Shown here piece after piece: positions 1 through 12,655 of a stretch of DNA of 53,145 nt. The position numbers and the translations under genes are program-made. Within the stretch, counting starts at the first letter, position 1. Every line of letters starts with the position of its first letter. The stretch lies in NCBI GenBank assembly GCA_029212785.1, contig JARGOG010000022.1, positions 1-53,145 of the forward strand, given 5' to 3'. The notes under the pieces were generated by a model, which searched no databases, had not been told where the DNA came from, and saw only the letters and a list, made by a program, of their open reading frames with translations. Source of the DNA: Thalassobaculaceae bacterium. GTDB taxonomy: Bacteria; Pseudomonadota; Alphaproteobacteria; Thalassobaculales; Thalassobaculaceae.

Positions 1-99
1 GCCGACGGCCCCTATGCCTGGATGAACAAGGCGATGTTCGTGTCCACCGGCGACCGCAAGCCGGAAGGCCCTGTCTACCGGGTGTTCAAGGTTCTCTGA
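1..99 (+). CDS. DUF3237 family protein, C-terminal end only
   Basis: Only the last 32 codons and a TGA stop are inside the window; the gene begins before base 1. The fragment contains YAWMNKAMFVSTG and ends VYRVFKVL. This matches the closing strands of the small DUF3237 beta-barrel family, where a 'YAWLN...GTG...VYRVY' ending is typical. The biochemical role of that family is not established. A spacer of about 150 bases separates it from the LuxP-like gene, so co-transcription cannot be judged. Family assignment from so short a tail is moderate. Confidence 0.55.
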   Translation, partial: ADGPYAWMNKAMFVSTGDRKPEGPVYRVFKVL

Positions 100-249
100 C
101 CCGTCGCGCGCCCCTCCGGCCCACGGGTGGGCGCGCGGCCCGTCTGCTCTCTGCTTCGTGTCGACCCCGAAATTCGACGCGATTGCCAACTGTGCTATGG
201 TTCTCGCCAAGCTTGTCGGCGGGGCGGAGAGAACAGGCGGAGGGGAGCG

Positions 250-1371
250 ATGCGAGGAAAATCGGGCTGCCTGAGCGCGTTGTTCGCGGGTCTGTTGGCG
301 GTGCTGATTGTCACATCCGACGCCTGGGCCACGGACGATGTCGACGGGTATTACACGCTCGACGAATATTTTGAACTGCATCCGGAGCAGAAGCGGCTCA
401 CAGCCGATTTCTCGGCAGTTGTTCGGTCTGCGGCGGTGCCTGTGTCACGGCCGCCCGAGGTGCCGGTCCGGGTTCTGATCGTCTATCCCGGCCTGCAGGT
501 CTCCGACTATTGGCGCCGCAGCGTCGAAGCGTTCCGCGGGCGCATGAAGGAGCTCGGCATCGCCGTCGAGATCGACGAGTATTTCACCAAGCCCGGGACC
601 GCGCTGCGGCAGCAGGGCCGGATTGTCGAGGAGGGCATGACGACGTCGCCGGACTATGTCGTGTTCACCCTCGATGCCCTGCGTCACCAGGGCATGGTCG
701 AGCGGATCCTGTCGCACCGGACGGCCAAGGTGATCCTCCAGAACATCACGACCCCGATCAAGGCGCTCGAGCGCAATCAACCGTTCCTATATGTCGGCTT
801 CGACCATGCCGTCGGCGCCCGCATGCTAGCCGAGCGGTTCAAGCGCGAGACGCCGGGCGGCGCCCGGTTCGCCATTCTCTTCGGGCCTGAGGGCTATGTG
901 AGCACCATGCGCGGCGGCGTCTTCCTGACGGAGATGCAGGACCACGGCGCGTCTGAGCGGGTGGCCTCCTACTATGTCAACTTCGACCGCGAGCGGGCTT
1001 ACCTGGCGACCATGGACCTGCTGTCCCGGCATCAGGATCTGGATCTGATCTATGCCTGCTCGACCGATATCGCGCTCGGCGCGGTCGACGCGCTTCGGGA
1101 AACGGGGCGTCTCGGCGAGATCCTGGTGAACGGCTGGGGCGGCGGGACAGCGGAGCTGGACGCGATCGCTGCCGGCGAGCTGGATTTCACGGTGATGCGC
1201 ATGAACGACGACAATGGTGTCGCCATGGCGGAGGCGATCCGGATGGACCTGATGGGGAAAGCCGCGTCGGTCCCTCGGGTGTTCTCGGGCGATTTCCGTC
1301 TCGTCGATCAGCAGACGTCCGAAGCGGAGATCGATCGGTTGAAAGCGAATGCCTTCAGATACTCGAACTGA
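250..1371 (+). CDS. LuxP-like periplasmic autoinducer-2 binding protein
   Basis: A 373-residue secreted sugar-binding-type protein (periplasmic binding protein fold) closely resembling Vibrio LuxP, the receptor for autoinducer-2 (AI-2). The ATG at 250 is chosen because it follows a purine-rich GGAGGGGAG and opens a signal peptide (hydrophobic residues about 9-27, AWA cleavage site). An upstream in-frame start at 127 would bury this signal. Residues known to contact AI-2 in V. harveyi LuxP are all present at matching spacing: Q83, S85, W88, N165, R221, T272, D273, W296 and R317. The motifs VSDYW, LQNITTP, ACSTD, NGWGGG and MRMNDD stand out. It overlaps the downstream kinase gene by 23 bases. 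AI-2 binding is inferred from residue conservation; a ribose-like ligand is the alternative. Confidence 0.87.
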   Translation: MRGKSGCLSALFAGLLAVLIVTSDAWATDDVDGYYTLDEYFELHPEQKRLTADFSAVVRSAAVPVSRPPEVPVRVLIVYPGLQVSDYWRRSVEAFRGRMKELGIAVEIDEYFTKPGTALRQQGRIVEEGMTTSPDYVVFTLDALRHQGMVERILSHRTAKVILQNITTPIKALERNQPFLYVGFDHAVGARMLAERFKRETPGGARFAILFGPEGYVSTMRGGVFLTEMQDHGASERVASYYVNFDRERAYLATMDLLSRHQDLDLIYACSTDIALGAVDALRETGRLGEILVNGWGGGTAELDAIAAGELDFTVMRMNDDNGVAMAEAIRMDLMGKAASVPRVFSGDFRLVDQQTSEAEIDRLKANAFRYSN

Positions 1372-3541
1372 TCCTCCGGAGCCCAGGTTCGAGGTCGCGC
1401 TGTCGACACTGGTTGTCTCGATCTTTCTCGTCCTGGGCCTGACCGTCGCATTTATCCTGGTGGTCAGCGGCTATCAGATCGCGCGCAAGGCGATCGAGAC
1501 CGATGTCGAACGTCATCGGGCTGGCACGCAACAGATCGCCCACCTGATCGTCTCCTCGCGCCTGCAGAATGTTCGGCAATTGATCGAATTGACCGTGGAG
1601 GACAGTGCCCTGCGCACGGCCATGGCCCGCGGTGACCGGCAGGGCGTCGAATCCCATCTCACCGGCGTGTTCTATGCGCAGGAGGAGGGCGGCATCGATA
1701 TTCTGTTCGCCCTGCTGGACGACGGCGGCGGGGTGATCGACGCGGGCCGGCAGGTTCACCGGCCCGAAGAGCTGCTCCAGATCGCCAAAGATCATCAGGC
1801 TTTCGCCATGGTCGACCAAGTGGTCGAACTCGGAAGAGGGGCGGAGAGCGACGCTCTCGTGCTCAGCAGCCAGGACGTCTTGGATCCCGAAACCGGCCGA
1901 GTCCTCGGCACGCTGTATGGCGGGCTGTCGCTCGACGACAATGTCAGCCTGGTATCGGCAATCGGCCATGCCTCTGGCGCATCGGTCGCGATGCTGGAAG
2001 TCGCAGGGCGGACAACGGATCCGGTGGTGATGCCGGAAGTGCCAATCGCCGGGGCCAAGGGGGCCGCCCTGGAGGGCGGCGCGGCCAACGGGTTCAGGCA
2101 ATTTCGCAGCGAATTGCCGCTGTGGGCCCCGGACGGCAACCCGATCATGCTGATCAGCAACCACCCTCTATGGGCGGTTCAGGAGCTCGGCCGCAGTTAC
2201 CGAATCGTTATCGTCGCCATCGTCGCGACGACCATCATTCTAGCCGCGATCGGGGCCTGGATCCTGAGGCAGGTGACCCGTCGGGCGACTGCGTCGCTGT
2301 CCGCCTATGTCGCCGAGGTCAATCGCCATGACGCCCGCGCCCGCTTCCGCAGGACGGTCGTGCACGAATTCAACCAGGTCGGCCAGACCCTGTCGCGCTT
2401 CGTGGCGGCCTTCCGGGAGAGCGATGCCCGGGCCCAGGTGATCCTGAACAACGCGCCGATCTCGATCACCATCAAGGCGCCGGACGGTGTCTACACTTTC
2501 GTGAACCGCGAATTCGAGTCGTCGATCGGCCTGTCGGCTCTGGAGGTCGTCGGCAAGCAGACGGGCGAGCTGTTCCCGGTGGAAATCGCTGAGGCGATCA
2601 ACCGCAGCGACCAGACCGTCACGGAGCTGCGGACCAACGTCCAGTTCGAGGCGGAATTGGAATTGAACGGGACGTTCAGGGCCTTTCTGGTCACCAAGTT
2701 CCCGCTGCTTTCCGCCGATGGCGACGTGACCGGGGTGTGCAGCATCACCTCCGACATCACGCAGATGAAGCTGTCGGAGAAGGCGCTGACCGAGGCGCTG
2801 GTGGCGGCGGAGAGTGCCAGCCAGGCGAAGTCCCGGTTCCTCGCGACCATGAGCCACGAGTTCCGCACCCCGCTGAATGCCATTCTGGGGTTCAGCGACC
2901 TGATCCGAGGCGAGTATATGGGGCCGGTCGGGAACGCGACCTATGCCGAGTATGCCGATGACATCCACCGCAGCGGTCAGCAGATGCTGGAACTGGTCGA
3001 CGAGGTTCTCGACAGCGCCGCCATCGAGGCCGGCCAGCGCCTGTTCAATCATGATCCGGTCGATCTGGGCGCGGTCATCGACGAAGCCGTGCGGCGTTTC
3101 CAGCCAGCCGTTGCCGACAAGCGTCTGACGCTCGCGGCCGATGTCGAAGACCGGTTGCCGGAGATCCGCAGCGACCATCGCGCCATCGTGCAGGTGCTGC
3201 AAAACCTGCTCTCCAATGCCGTCAAATTCACCCAGCCCGACGGCCGGATCACCGTCCGGGCGTATGAGGCGGCGGCTCCTGAAACGGGGATCGCAGGGGT
3301 GGTTCTGCAGGTGACGGACAACGGCATCGGCATGACGCCGGAAGTGGTGGCGACTGTCACCGAGCCGTTCTTCCAGGACAAGACCGACCCGCATCTGGCG
3401 GAGGCCGGCACCGGACTCGGCCTGTCGATCGTCAAATCGATCGTCGGCTCGCTCGGCGGCGGGTTGAAGATCGAGAGCGAACTGACGAAGGGGACCGTGG
3501 TGACAGTCTGGCTGCCGATGGGAGAGCCGTCGGTCGGGTAG
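1349..3541 (+). CDS. LuxQ-like sensor histidine kinase without receiver domain
   Basis: A 730-residue inner-membrane sensor kinase. Transmembrane segments lie near residues 18-40 and 284-306, with a periplasmic sensor of about 240 residues between them. Then come a short linker with EFNQVGQTL (Vibrio LuxQ has a similar EFDHIGSTL), a PAS domain about 350-475, and HisKA with phospho-acceptor H503 in MSHEFRTP. A HATPase_c domain follows, with N box LQNLLSNAVKF, DNGIGM and GTGLGLSIVK. The order matches LuxQ, but the protein stops after the ATPase domain and lacks the receiver module of Vibrio LuxQ. It overlaps the LuxP-like gene, as luxPQ do in Vibrio. In that system LuxP sits on the periplasmic sensor and ligand switches kinase to phosphatase; here that is inferred. 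The partner response regulator is not in the window. Confidence 0.85.
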   Translation: MPSDTRTDPPEPRFEVALSTLVVSIFLVLGLTVAFILVVSGYQIARKAIETDVERHRAGTQQIAHLIVSSRLQNVRQLIELTVEDSALRTAMARGDRQGVESHLTGVFYAQEEGGIDILFALLDDGGGVIDAGRQVHRPEELLQIAKDHQAFAMVDQVVELGRGAESDALVLSSQDVLDPETGRVLGTLYGGLSLDDNVSLVSAIGHASGASVAMLEVAGRTTDPVVMPEVPIAGAKGAALEGGAANGFRQFRSELPLWAPDGNPIMLISNHPLWAVQELGRSYRIVIVAIVATTIILAAIGAWILRQVTRRATASLSAYVAEVNRHDARARFRRTVVHEFNQVGQTLSRFVAAFRESDARAQVILNNAPISITIKAPDGVYTFVNREFESSIGLSALEVVGKQTGELFPVEIAEAINRSDQTVTELRTNVQFEAELELNGTFRAFLVTKFPLLSADGDVTGVCSITSDITQMKLSEKALTEALVAAESASQAKSRFLATMSHEFRTPLNAILGFSDLIRGEYMGPVGNATYAEYADDIHRSGQQMLELVDEVLDSAAIEAGQRLFNHDPVDLGAVIDEAVRRFQPAVADKRLTLAADVEDRLPEIRSDHRAIVQVLQNLLSNAVKFTQPDGRITVRAYEAAAPETGIAGVVLQVTDNGIGMTPEVVATVTEPFFQDKTDPHLAEAGTGLGLSIVKSIVGSLGGGLKIESELTKGTVVTVWLPMGEPSVG

Positions 3542-3596
3542 GGCAGGGAAGAGGTCGCCGGGTCAACCGGGGACATGCGCGGGGAGAGGAACAGCC

Positions 3597-4505
3597 ATGG
3601 GATTCAGGTCAACGGTGCCGGCGTTCGGCAAAAAGGTGATCATCGAGGCGCGGGTGAACGAGTACATGCCGCGCGACGTCAATCCGAACGTGCCCTTCAC
3701 ACCCGACGAGATCGTCGAGGCCGCTGTCGCCTGCCGGGAGGCGGGCGCCGCCATCTGCCACTACCATGCGCGCAATCCCGACGGCTCGCCGAACCATGAT
3801 CCGGAGACCTATATCGAGACCATCCGCAAGCTTCGCGCGGCCAGCGACATCCTGATCAACCCCACGCTCGGCCAGGTCACCCTGAAATCCTCCGACGAAG
3901 CGCGGCTGCAGCACATCGTGTCGGCGAGCCGGGAGCCCGGTCTGACGCCGGATTTCGCCCCCATCGACATCGGGTCGACCAATGTCGACGTCTATGACCC
4001 GGCGGCGAAGACGATGCGGACCGACACGCTCGCCTATGTGAACACGCCGAAGACCTGTGCCTATTTCGCCCGGCGCATGCGCGAGGTCGGGGTCAAGCCG
4101 GTGGCGGTCTCCTGGACAATCCCCTTCACCCGCATGTTCGAGGCGTTCTTGGAGATGGGCCTGCTCGACCAGCCGGCCTATCTGCTGTTCGCGCTGTCCG
4201 ACTCGGGGTATCTGGGTGGCCATCCGGGGACCATAAAGGGTCTGCTGTCCCACCTGGAGTATCTGCCGCAGGGGTTCCGCTACGAGTGGTCGGTCAACAG
4301 CAAGGTGGGCAACCTGTTCGGACCCGCCGCCCTGGCCCTGGAAATGGGCGGACATGTGGCCATCGGGCTCGGCGACTATCCCTACCCGGAGCTGGGCACG
4401 CCGACGAACGCCGATTTGGTCAGACGGATCGCCGAGCATGCCGAGGCTTTCGGCCGCGCGCCCGCCTCCCCGGCGGAAACCCGCGCCCTGCTCGGGATGA
4501 GCTGA
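3597..4505 (+). CDS. Beta-keto acid cleavage enzyme (BKACE, DUF849)
   Basis: A 302-residue TIM-barrel metalloenzyme of the BKACE/DUF849 family. Members condense a beta-keto acid with acetyl-CoA or another acyl-CoA, giving acetoacetate plus a new CoA ester; the founding member is the lysine-fermentation enzyme Kce. The metal-binding HxH appears as H55 and H57 in CHYHARNPDG, a hallmark of the family, and the length is typical. The ATG at 3597 is preceded by GGGGAGAGGA. The gene lies 55 bases after the LuxQ-like kinase on the same strand, so it may share its transcript. The specific substrate cannot be read from the sequence, since the family has many subgroups. Confidence 0.85.
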   Translation: MGFRSTVPAFGKKVIIEARVNEYMPRDVNPNVPFTPDEIVEAAVACREAGAAICHYHARNPDGSPNHDPETYIETIRKLRAASDILINPTLGQVTLKSSDEARLQHIVSASREPGLTPDFAPIDIGSTNVDVYDPAAKTMRTDTLAYVNTPKTCAYFARRMREVGVKPVAVSWTIPFTRMFEAFLEMGLLDQPAYLLFALSDSGYLGGHPGTIKGLLSHLEYLPQGFRYEWSVNSKVGNLFGPAALALEMGGHVAIGLGDYPYPELGTPTNADLVRRIAEHAEAFGRAPASPAETRALLGMS

Positions 4506-4517
4506 GCACCCTGCGAA

Positions 4518-4602
4518 TGGTGGCCCCGGAGGGACTCGAACCCTCACGCCCGAAGGCTCGCGATTTTAAGTCGCGTGCGTCTACCAGTTCCGCCACGGGG
4601 CC
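4518..4602 (-). tRNA. tRNA-Leu (anticodon UAA)
   Basis: An 85-nt class II tRNA on the minus strand. The acceptor stem GGCCCCG pairs perfectly with CGGGGCC, followed by discriminator A and an encoded CCA. The anticodon loop CTTAAAA sits on a CGCGA/TCGCG stem and gives UAA, decoding UUA and UUG. A long variable arm with GCCTTCGGGC, and a T arm GAGGG-TTCGAGT-CCCTC, complete the cloverleaf. It lies between the converging BKACE gene and the alpha/beta hydrolase. No integrase or attachment-site duplication is visible next to it. Confidence 0.96.
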
Positions 4603-10402: not shown

Positions 10403-11638
10403 ATGACTGCCGCAACCACCACCGCCGAAGATACGGCCGGATCGTTTCGCGATGACATGAAGGTCATCTCGCTGATCGGCACCGCCCATTTCTTCAGTCA
10501 CTTCTACATCCTGCTGCTCGCGCCGCTGTTCCCGATCCTCAAGGACGCGTTCGGTGTCAGCTACGTGCAGCTCGGGCTGATCCTCACGGTTGCCAACGCG
10601 GCGACCGGCGTGAGCCAGATCCCGTTCGGCTATCTGGTCGACCGGATCGGCGCGAAATGGATCCTGATCGGCGGGTTGGCGGCGCACGGGCTCGCCTTCG
10701 TGCTGATCGGGGTAACGGGCTCGTACTGGGCGATGCTGGCCTGCATGGTGCTCGCCGGAGCGGCGAACGGGGTCTACCACCCGGCCGACTATGCGATCCT
10801 CTCGGCTTCGGTCTCCGAGAAGCGGATGGGGCGCGGCTTCTCACTGCACACCTTCACCGGGTTCGCCGGCTTCGCCGCGGTGCCCATGACGATCGTCTGG
10901 CTGGCCCAGGAATTCGGCTGGCAGACCGGCGTGACCGTGTGCGGGGCCGCCGGCATGGTCGCCGCTTTGGCGCTGCTCGTGTTCGGCCGTGCGCTCAAGC
11001 ATGCGCCCGGTTCCGATAAGCGGGCCAAGAAGGGTGACGACACGGCGGCGCCCGGGAGTGCGACGTCGATCATGCTGAACCCGGCGATCCTGATGTGCCT
11101 GATGTTCTTCCTGTTGCTGGCGCTCAGTTCCGGCGGCATCAACAACTTCCTGGTCTCGGCGCTGAACCGGGTGCACGGCACGCCGGTGGATTCCGCGAAT
11201 CTGGGGCTGACCTTCTATCTGGTCGGTTCCTCCCTCGGCATCCTGCTGGGCGGCGTGATCGCCGACCGTACCTCCAACCACAACCGGGTGGCCGCCTGCT
11301 GCTTCCTGGCGACCGCAGTGGCGGTGATGATCGTCGGCACGGTGGCCCTGCCGATCTGGGGGCTGGTGATGCTGATGGCGGTGCAGGGGCTGACCCACGG
11401 CATCATCATGCCGAGCCGCGACATGATCGTGCGCTCGGTCACGCCGACCGGCTCGATGGGCAAGGTGTTCGGCTTCGTGTCCACCGGCTTCAGCCTCGGC
11501 GGCATCGTCGCCCCGCTGTTGTTCGGCTTCCTGCTCGACCAGGGCGAGCCGGGGCTGGTGTTCTACGTGATCGCCGGCTTCATGGTGGTCTCGCTGCTCA
11601 CCGTCTTCACCGTCGGCGGCAAGAAGGCGACGGCGTAG
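10403..11638 (+). CDS. MFS transporter, Fsr-like
   Basis: A 411-residue major facilitator with 12 predicted membrane helices. The N-terminal half carries the MFS signature loop between helices 2 and 3 (GYLVDRIGAKW). The opening HFFSHFYILLLAPLFPIL resembles the fosmidomycin-resistance (Fsr) branch, so an efflux role is possible, but the substrate is unknown. The ATG at 10403 is preferred because it directly opens the short N-tail before helix 1; a TTG ten codons upstream is the alternative, and neither has a strong ribosome site. It is divergent from the small membrane protein gene and convergent with the EamA permease. Confidence 0.83.
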   Translation: MTAATTTAEDTAGSFRDDMKVISLIGTAHFFSHFYILLLAPLFPILKDAFGVSYVQLGLILTVANAATGVSQIPFGYLVDRIGAKWILIGGLAAHGLAFVLIGVTGSYWAMLACMVLAGAANGVYHPADYAILSASVSEKRMGRGFSLHTFTGFAGFAAVPMTIVWLAQEFGWQTGVTVCGAAGMVAALALLVFGRALKHAPGSDKRAKKGDDTAAPGSATSIMLNPAILMCLMFFLLLALSSGGINNFLVSALNRVHGTPVDSANLGLTFYLVGSSLGILLGGVIADRTSNHNRVAACCFLATAVAVMIVGTVALPIWGLVMLMAVQGLTHGIIMPSRDMIVRSVTPTGSMGKVFGFVSTGFSLGGIVAPLLFGFLLDQGEPGLVFYVIAGFMVVSLLTVFTVGGKKATA

Positions 11639-11663
11639 GGGGCTCTCCGACACGGATCTCATC

Positions 11664-11706
11664 TTCCCGGTCTCGCGCCGGGACCGAGACGGCCGCGCGC
11701 CGGGAA
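11664..11706. repeat. Palindromic dispersed repeat, copy A (between convergent genes)
   Basis: Nested inverted repeats: outer arms TTCCCGG (11664-11670) and CCGGGAA (11700-11706), and inner arms GTCTCG and CGAGAC. The stretch CTTCCCGGTCTCGCGCCGGG matches the reverse complement of the right arm of copy C near 37437-37457 with only a few differences. It lies in the 78-base gap between the convergent MFS and EamA genes and may also act as a bidirectional terminator. Confidence 0.6.
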
Positions 11707-11716
11707 AGCGGGTGGA

Positions 11717-12655
11717 CTAGTCGGTCTTCGAGAGCACCGTCTCCCGGTGGATGACGTACAGGCCGCTGGCGATGACGACCGTGCCGCCGACGATCACCCA
11801 GATGTCCGGGATGTCGCCGAAGACCATGTATCCCCAGAACGCCGCGAAGGTGATCTGGACATACTGGAACGGCGCCAGGGTAGAGGCGGTGGCGACTTTG
11901 TAGGCGTTGATCATCAACCCCTGGGAGACGCCGCCGATCGCGCCCATCGCCGCCATCCAACCGAGCTGCTCCCAACTCGGGGTCTGCCAGAAGAACGGCA
12001 GCATGAGCGTGGTGCCGGCCGTGCCCATGAGCGCCGCATAGAACAGGATCGACATCGTCTCCTCGGTGCGGGTCAGCATCCGGGTGACGATGACGAAGAC
12101 GGCGAAGATGAACGCCATGAAGATCATCAGGCCGTAGGCCCAGTGCACGTCGACGAAGCCGGGACGCGCGATCACCAGGACGCCGACCAGCCCGATCAGC
12201 ACGGCTGCCCAGCGACGGGGTCCGACCCGCTCCCCCAGGATGGGAATCGACAGGGCGACGACGAATAGCGGCGCCACGAACCCGATGGCCACCGCGTCCG
12301 CCAGAGGAATGTACCGGATGGCGGTGAAGAAACTCATCGTGGCGGTCAGCAACAGCGCGCCCCGCAACAGGGTCAGCTTGACCTGGCGGACCCGCAGCAG
12401 CGGCAGCAGCCGCTTCCCCGGAAAGAACATCAGCATGAAGCCGAGATGGAAGGCATAGCGCCCCCAGGCGACCATGGGGACGGGCATTTCCTGGCCCAGA
12501 TGCTTGGCGATCGTGTCCATTGTCGCGAACAGCAGCTCGGCCGTGATCAGCAACCCGATGCCCCGCATCGCGTTCTCCGACACGTCCGGCGTGCGGGTCG
12601 CGGCGGCAGGAGCGCGATCGGGCGCCAAGACGGGGGGCTGGGGCATGGTCGACAT
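11717..12655 (-). CDS. EamA/DMT-family permease
   Basis: A protein of about 312 residues of the drug/metabolite transporter superfamily, with two EamA repeats and 10 predicted helices. Recognisable parts are the first repeat TAELLFATMDTIAKHLGQ and the end of the helix pair SFFTAIRYIPLADAVAIGF, the classic EamA 'A-x-x-x-x-P' helix. The start is uncertain: ATG at 12655 and at 12646 are both possible, and longer starts would add an unlikely tail. It is divergent from the coiled-coil protein gene. Substrate unknown; relatives export amino acids or small metabolites. Confidence 0.82.
   Translation of the reverse strand: MSTMPQPPVLAPDRAPAAATRTPDVSENAMRGIGLLITAELLFATMDTIAKHLGQEMPVPMVAWGRYAFHLGFMLMFFPGKRLLPLLRVRQVKLTLLRGALLLTATMSFFTAIRYIPLADAVAIGFVAPLFVVALSIPILGERVGPRRWAAVLIGLVGVLVIARPGFVDVHWAYGLMIFMAFIFAVFVIVTRMLTRTEETMSILFYAALMGTAGTTLMLPFFWQTPSWEQLGWMAAMGAIGGVSQGLMINAYKVATASTLAPFQYVQITFAAFWGYMVFGDIPDIWVIVGGTVVIASGLYVIHRETVLSKTD

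Follow-up and report, generated by a model that had tools for sequence, protein, structure and literature searches.

A LuxP homolog paired with a receiver-less LuxQ-like kinase suggests AI-2 listening in an alphaproteobacterium in which no luxS was found

Papers up to 2020, in the portions available, place the AI-2 receptor LuxP only in Vibrio (PMC524169, PMC7584622). The accessible part of PMC12268683 gives a count of 267 LuxP proteins, most of them proteobacterial, and describes AI-2 binding by three selected homologs from Proteobacteria and Deferribacterota; an alphaproteobacterial LuxP could belong to the 267 or be one of the three binders. Listening without producing was already suggested for luxS-negative LuxP bearers in PMC2561040, the available text of which concerns gamma- and deltaproteobacterial LuxPs and in section 12 mentions neither an alphaproteobacterial LuxP nor a LuxQ periplasmic domain in the partner proteins. 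The proposal of LuxP in luxS-less bacteria dates from 2008. Among the literature matches listed, judged mostly by title or the start of the abstract and including few subscription journals, we found no published description of an alphaproteobacterial LuxP branch or of an exchange of its outputs. What is new at the locus described here is the combination of a receiver-less kinase, no luxS, and a LuxP branch of its own.

In the window (the 53,145-nucleotide stretch of a Thalassobaculaceae contig analyzed here), a luxP homolog of 373 amino acids lies on the forward strand at positions 250 to 1371, with its ATG start at 250 and its stop codon at 1369 to 1371. We propose, at a probability of roughly 65%, that it belongs to an orphan LuxPQ-type receptor complex that senses AI-2 or a very similar furanosyl compound made by others. 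The product was assigned as a periplasmic binding protein by Pfam (Peripla_BP_4), phmmer, and predicted fold; its N-terminal stretch (about residues 1 to 27) looks like a signal peptide when judged by eye. It is 47% identical to Vibrio harveyi LuxP. In a phmmer search of the PDB, four solved LuxP sequences matched at E values of 3.9e-103 to 2.5e-102, the best of them (V. harveyi LuxP) spanning residues 31 to 372, and the first non-LuxP match was a sugar-binding design at 9e-12. The initial annotation had called a LuxP-like receptor here and had proposed superposing a predicted structure on AI-2-bound LuxP. Our predicted model (pLDDT 88.9, alignment of 55 sequences) matched AI-2-bound 1jx6 with a Z score of 48.9 and an rmsd of 1.3 Å over 338 residues, compared with a Z score of 41.3 and 3.2 Å over 342 residues for apo LuxP (1zhh) and a Z score of 31.3 for the best ribose binder. 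The nearest solved periplasmic binding protein over the full length is LuxP, by sequence and by fold. Identity, E value, and fold match together confirm that positions 250 to 1371 encode a real LuxP. AlphaFold has probably seen the LuxP and LuxQ folds, and Vibrio sequences were present in the alignments behind both folds predicted in this study (LuxP and the periplasmic domain of the kinase); the fold match therefore speaks for kinship of fold, not for ligand. The comparison with 1jx6 cannot separate a pocket that is open in life from one that is closed, and AlphaFold training, rather than the pocket, may account for the closed, 1jx6-like shape of the model.

The initial annotation had also named nine contact residues, Q83, S85, W88, N165, R221, T272, D273, W296, and R317, and all nine stand in the translation at exactly those numbers. 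They are encoded on the forward strand at 496 to 513 (codons 83 to 88, with Q83, S85, and W88), 742 to 744 (N165), 910 to 912 (R221), 1063 to 1068 (T272 and D273), 1135 to 1137 (W296), and 1198 to 1200 (R317), and in the alignment V. harveyi LuxP carries the identical residue at each of the nine columns (row L084). These nine correspond to the AI-2 ligands of LuxP in the 1JX6 structure, R221 and R317 being aligned with LuxP Arg215 and Arg310. Of these contacts, the available text of two papers confirms four: Trp82 and Gln77 (PMC12921845) and Arg215 and Arg310 (PMC3794749).

Conservation of the pocket was quantified in 22 close homologs, comprising the window, the added V. harveyi LuxP, three rows from a family search, and the remainder from two whole-genome homology searches; 21 of the 22 came from homology searches without motif selection. 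Eight of the nine contacts were among the 49 invariant positions of 340 (hypergeometric p of about 9e-7, a nominal value given that the rows are related and eight come from one genus). The ninth, Q83, failed only in L105, where the frame is broken by a stop. In a wider set of 90 aligned LuxP rows, which includes at least three duplicates (L006/L085, L008/L088, and L011/L089) and excludes L001 to L004, L094, and L095, all nine contacts were present in 87. The exceptions were L037 (X at 273), L040 (S at 273), and L055 (E at 83), the latter two keeping the luxP context with one contact changed. The patterns used to scan for relatives (GLQ[VEQ]SDYW and VMRMNDD) include Q83, S85, W88, and R317, so pattern-found loci were not relied on for the conservation of these residues; the whole-genome homology searches served to avoid this circularity.

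Ten remote homologs (28 to 33% identity) all lacked Q83, N165, and D273, N165 being replaced in every one. Two of the ten, in genomes G333 and G415, were examined for context and adjoin ABC permease and ATPase genes; pocket and gene context change together where looked at, in two cases, which are few. L094 to L097 and L112 to L119 form a separate LuxP-related binding-protein family, 28 to 33% identical and with an altered pocket, and three genomes hold both kinds. The ABC neighbors, along with a Pfam domain (Peripla_BP_4) and overall fold common to RbsB, are what might be expected if the window protein were an ordinary ribose-type sugar-binding protein, LuxP-like in look, that senses or imports a pentose. 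We give that reading very little credence: no sugar binder comes nearly as close in sequence and fold as LuxP does, the downstream neighbor encodes a LuxQ-periplasm kinase and not an ABC component, and the remote homologs differ from the window protein at Q83, N165, and D273.

A LuxP-type pocket leaves some breadth in the choice of ligand. According to the available portion of PMC12921845, LuxP also responds to L-xylosone, L-xylulose, and MHF, so even a complete set of contacts does not point to AI-2 alone. The pair could thus sense a look-alike of AI-2 (a furanosyl borate or a related diketone or ketose, such as the three compounds just named) that is released by algae, animals, or fungi and signals a host or a nutrient. 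That V. harveyi LuxP itself accepts these compounds, and that LuxP structures exist with 1-deoxy-L-xylulofuranose borate and a formose-derived analogue, lends this account some weight; against it, all nine AI-2 contacts are unchanged, and the same pocket occurs in luxS-carrying Vibrionaceae (6 of the 6 searched). We regard a look-alike as rather unlikely, and AI-2 as the likely ligand.

The initial annotation was right about LuxP itself and missed the partner gene that would make it a receptor complex. Overlapping luxP by 23 bases (1349 to 1371 in the two reading frames) is a gene on the same strand (1349 to 3541) for a LuxQ-like sensor histidine kinase of 730 amino acids, assigned by Pfam and NCBIfam. 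The same overlapping predicted start (MPS-) recurs in L008, L009, and L010, the last a near relative of the window LuxP. A LuxQ-periplasm domain (PF09308; positions 1487 to 1981, kinase residues 47 to 211, profile positions 3 to 168 of 239) was detected by Pfam and by fold, and Pfam also placed a PAS domain (2444 to 2764, residues 366 to 472), a HisKA phospho-acceptor domain with an HEFRTP motif (2825 to 3034, residues 493 to 562), and a HATPase_c domain (3173 to 3520, residues 609 to 724), all on the forward strand. The C-terminal receiver of LuxQ is lacking: a Pfam scan of the kinase up to E 1 returned no Response_reg, and there was no match to a home-made receiver profile, which is insensitive, having missed a genuine response regulator in L010.

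The PF09308 match scored 29.6 bits, narrowly above its cut-off of 25.7, and the outer part of the kinase alone found three sequence matches in the PDB, all of them LuxQ and all weak (E 0.009 to 0.59). A model of the periplasmic part (residues 41 to 290, pLDDT 87.0, alignment of 35 sequences) matched five LuxQ entries with Z scores of 17.3 to 18.8 over 205 to 214 residues, the next entry reaching 13.2, at 14 to 16% identity to LuxQ. With the Pfam score barely past its cut-off and identity this low, docking of the kinase on LuxP is put forward here as a prediction. The top NCBIfam match was LuxQ_Vibrio at 253.6 bits against a cut-off of 1200, and we therefore call the kinase LuxQ-like rather than a LuxQ equivalog. 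Neither of the readable neighbors of the pair encodes a response regulator: one is the 3' end of a DUF3237-like gene, the other a gene for a beta-keto acid cleavage enzyme (BKACE). In L010, a receiver-HD protein (HD_5; 11238 to 12314) is encoded directly after a receiver-less LuxQ-like kinase, a candidate cognate regulator offered as a lead only.

The genome appears to hold a receptor for AI-2 and no means of making it through LuxS. A whole-genome search for luxS (PF02664), the step proposed by the initial annotation, found none in this genome, which is rated 100% complete; among 14 known genomes, the search control was positive in 5. The genome does encode SahH. The luxS of the same genome that characterizes the Vibrio AI-2 circuit is thus missing from this one, and the bacterium probably listens to other organisms; with SahH present and luxS absent, the signal must come mainly from them. 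The earlier suggestion of an eavesdropper with a likely AI-2-type ligand gains support from the absence of luxS, the presence of SahH, and the overlapping LuxQ-type kinase. Across 52 LuxP-bearing genomes (a subset of loci, grouped by record title, with several MAGs of uncertain completeness and L028 left out), luxS was found in 0 of 24 from Alphaproteobacteria, 15 of 22 from other groups outside the Vibrionaceae, and 6 of 6 Vibrionaceae.

The pair sits in a variable part of the genome. Together with the BKACE gene (3597 to 4505, forward strand), luxP and the kinase gene occupy a species-specific slot (window positions 1 to 4602) between the DUF3237-like gene and tRNA-Leu(taa) (4518 to 4602, reverse strand), which forms the right border; three genus-mates carry other genes in this slot. 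Similarity to the three begins at the tRNA, all three matching from about 4512 to about 6800. At the other end, window positions 1 to 97, the end of a gene, match the neighborhood in two genus-mates: in G026 the matching gene encodes a DUF3237 protein and is separated from the same tRNA by 3.8 kb; in G025 the distance is 11 kb. Given these matches at both ends, the assembly is unlikely to be contaminated. Beside the same tRNA-Leu in G027 stands a phage-type integrase; a tblastx comparison of the window with G027 yielded for the most part short, scattered matches, and we drew on it for the BKACE gene only. Variable slots next to tRNA genes are common sites of acquired DNA. No relative of luxP appeared in the viral contig scan, and a phage-borne luxP was accordingly rejected.

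This setting raises the question of whether the pair is a recently acquired or decaying copy that has no working output. Of 6 genomes from the genus and 36 from the family, 1 and 4, respectively, carry the gene, this genome being counted each time; the species-specific segment ends at tRNA-Leu, and no regulator directly adjoins. However, both frames are open, the domains of the kinase are complete, the luxP-kinase overlap is kept in relatives, and in the best tree the protein groups with other alphaproteobacterial LuxPs. A copy without a working output, whether newly acquired or in decay, is, in our judgment, decidedly improbable.

The relatives of this LuxP correct the earlier view that such receptors are mainly a Vibrio trait. 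A contig scan detected 212 relatives, of which 80 were kept, so the list of genera is partial: among the 80 are the alphaproteobacterial genera Kiloniella, Terasakiella, Magnetovibrio, Sneathiella, Stappia, Labrenzia, and Nisaea, as well as Arcobacter-like, desulfobacterial, and several gammaproteobacterial genera. In searches without motif selection, homologs at E up to 1e-20 were present in 10 of 385 alphaproteobacterial genomes and 19 of 398 genomes of the phylum, and close homologs (at least 42% identity) in 8 and 13, respectively; the two samples overlap, and both include this genome. In a 68-row tree with 31 alphaproteobacterial rows (the window included, and two duplicate pairs among them), a single branch (91/95, not starred) separated the alphaproteobacterial LuxPs from the rest, placing them outside Vibrio, and the window LuxP grouped with Kiloniella and a Rhodospirillaceae MAG (100/95, starred). 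The tree takes its root from two very remote rows (branch length 5), which leaves the position of the root uncertain. Recent transfer from Vibrio is not favored by this separate branch, although at 91/95 the branch is itself favored, not proven.

Most luxP genes lie beside a large partner gene, and the partner varies in its output. An adjacent downstream partner of more than 600 amino acids on the same strand was present at 75 of 84 LuxP loci. Of the nine others, two end too soon (L011 and L015), three hold short frames only (L012, L063, and L077), and four hold none (L030, L049, L065, and L074). These last four are the luxP genes of Motilimonas, which differ in this from nearly all others. 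We scanned 43 of the 75 partners, having dropped 31 Vibrio rows and L006 (same genome as L085) and retained L038 (Thaumasiovibrio, Vibrionaceae); loci from the two whole-genome homology searches, with only about 1.5 kb of flank each, were outside this survey. Counting matches at E up to 0.01 rather than at gathering cut-offs, LuxQ-periplasm was found in all 43, the window's own partner included. The outputs were HisKA/HATPase in 28, GGDEF plus EAL in 14, and SpoIIE in 1, and a receiver domain was present in 10. GGDEF-EAL partners occurred at nine alphaproteobacterial loci (L035, L036, L037, L047, L062, L064, L079, L080, and L081) and five gammaproteobacterial ones (L041, L045, L059, L060, and L075). 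The single SpoIIE case, in a Desulfococcaceae contig (L019, 9164 to 11398), joins a LuxQ-periplasm domain to a SpoIIE phosphatase domain. On the LuxP tree, at least four changes of output type are needed.

From their domain content, the GGDEF-EAL partners offer a possible direct route from AI-2 to c-di-GMP. These partners and the receiver-HD gene of L010 loosely point to c-di-GMP as a recurring target. We put at even odds the broader idea that LuxP and the LuxQ periplasmic domain form an exchangeable AI-2 input module across Alphaproteobacteria, Gammaproteobacteria, Campylobacterota, and Thermodesulfobacteriota, wired to kinases, to GGDEF-EAL proteins, or (once) to a SpoIIE-type phosphatase, with the alphaproteobacterial branch, luxS-less in all 24 genomes searched, being a lineage that listens exclusively and does not practice quorum sensing.

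For the window itself, the orphan LuxPQ-type receptor that we favor builds on gene content, homology, contacts, predicted folds, the lack of a luxS match, and SahH; from these we infer the ligand, the docking, the direction of the switch, and the target regulator. Periplasmic LuxP would close on AI-2 (S-THMF-borate) or a very similar furanosyl compound, supplied mainly by other organisms, and the LuxQ-type periplasmic domain of the kinase would dock on it. Ligand binding would then shift the kinase/phosphatase balance of the LuxQ-like kinase. Lacking a built-in receiver domain, the kinase would signal straight to a separate response regulator, bypassing the internal receiver of LuxQ and LuxU.

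A luxS-less alphaproteobacterial branch with a whole pocket and a matching sensor is a clean system in which to take up the long-standing question of whether non-producers use AI-2 as a cue. No LuxS-made AI-2 is expected in such a cell, so any response to AI-2 would be cross-species. With a c-di-GMP enzyme as the output, the response could be read directly by biochemical means.

Compared with LuxPQ of V. harveyi and Vibrio cholerae, the pair has the same nine contacts, periplasmic fold, luxP-luxQ gene order, and LuxQ-periplasm, HisKA, and HATPase domains. In contrast to LuxQ, for which the available text of PMC524169 describes a C-terminal receiver, the kinase here has none; a receiver was found in 31 of 31 Vibrio partners, by a profile built from the same 31. 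No luxS accompanies the pair, and the kinase falls well short of LuxQ_Vibrio (253.6 bits versus 1200). The luxS-negative LuxPs of Neptuniibacter, Marinomonas, and Desulfuromonas, as described in the accessible text of PMC2561040, likewise stand in an operon with a PAS-containing regulator and no luxS. The Lsr (LsrB) systems of Sinorhizobium and Rhodobacter are also found in luxS-less Alphaproteobacteria thought to eavesdrop on AI-2, in the portion of PMC3386761 available; however, Lsr imports AI-2 through an ABC transporter, whereas the binding protein here is paired with a kinase. Finally, the dCACHE (CahR) AI-2 receptors, such as PctA and TlpQ, are likewise membrane sensors with many outputs, according to the available part of PMC12268683. 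Those receptors bind AI-2 directly, as the accessible text of PMC7584622 reports, whereas here a separate periplasmic protein should do the binding.
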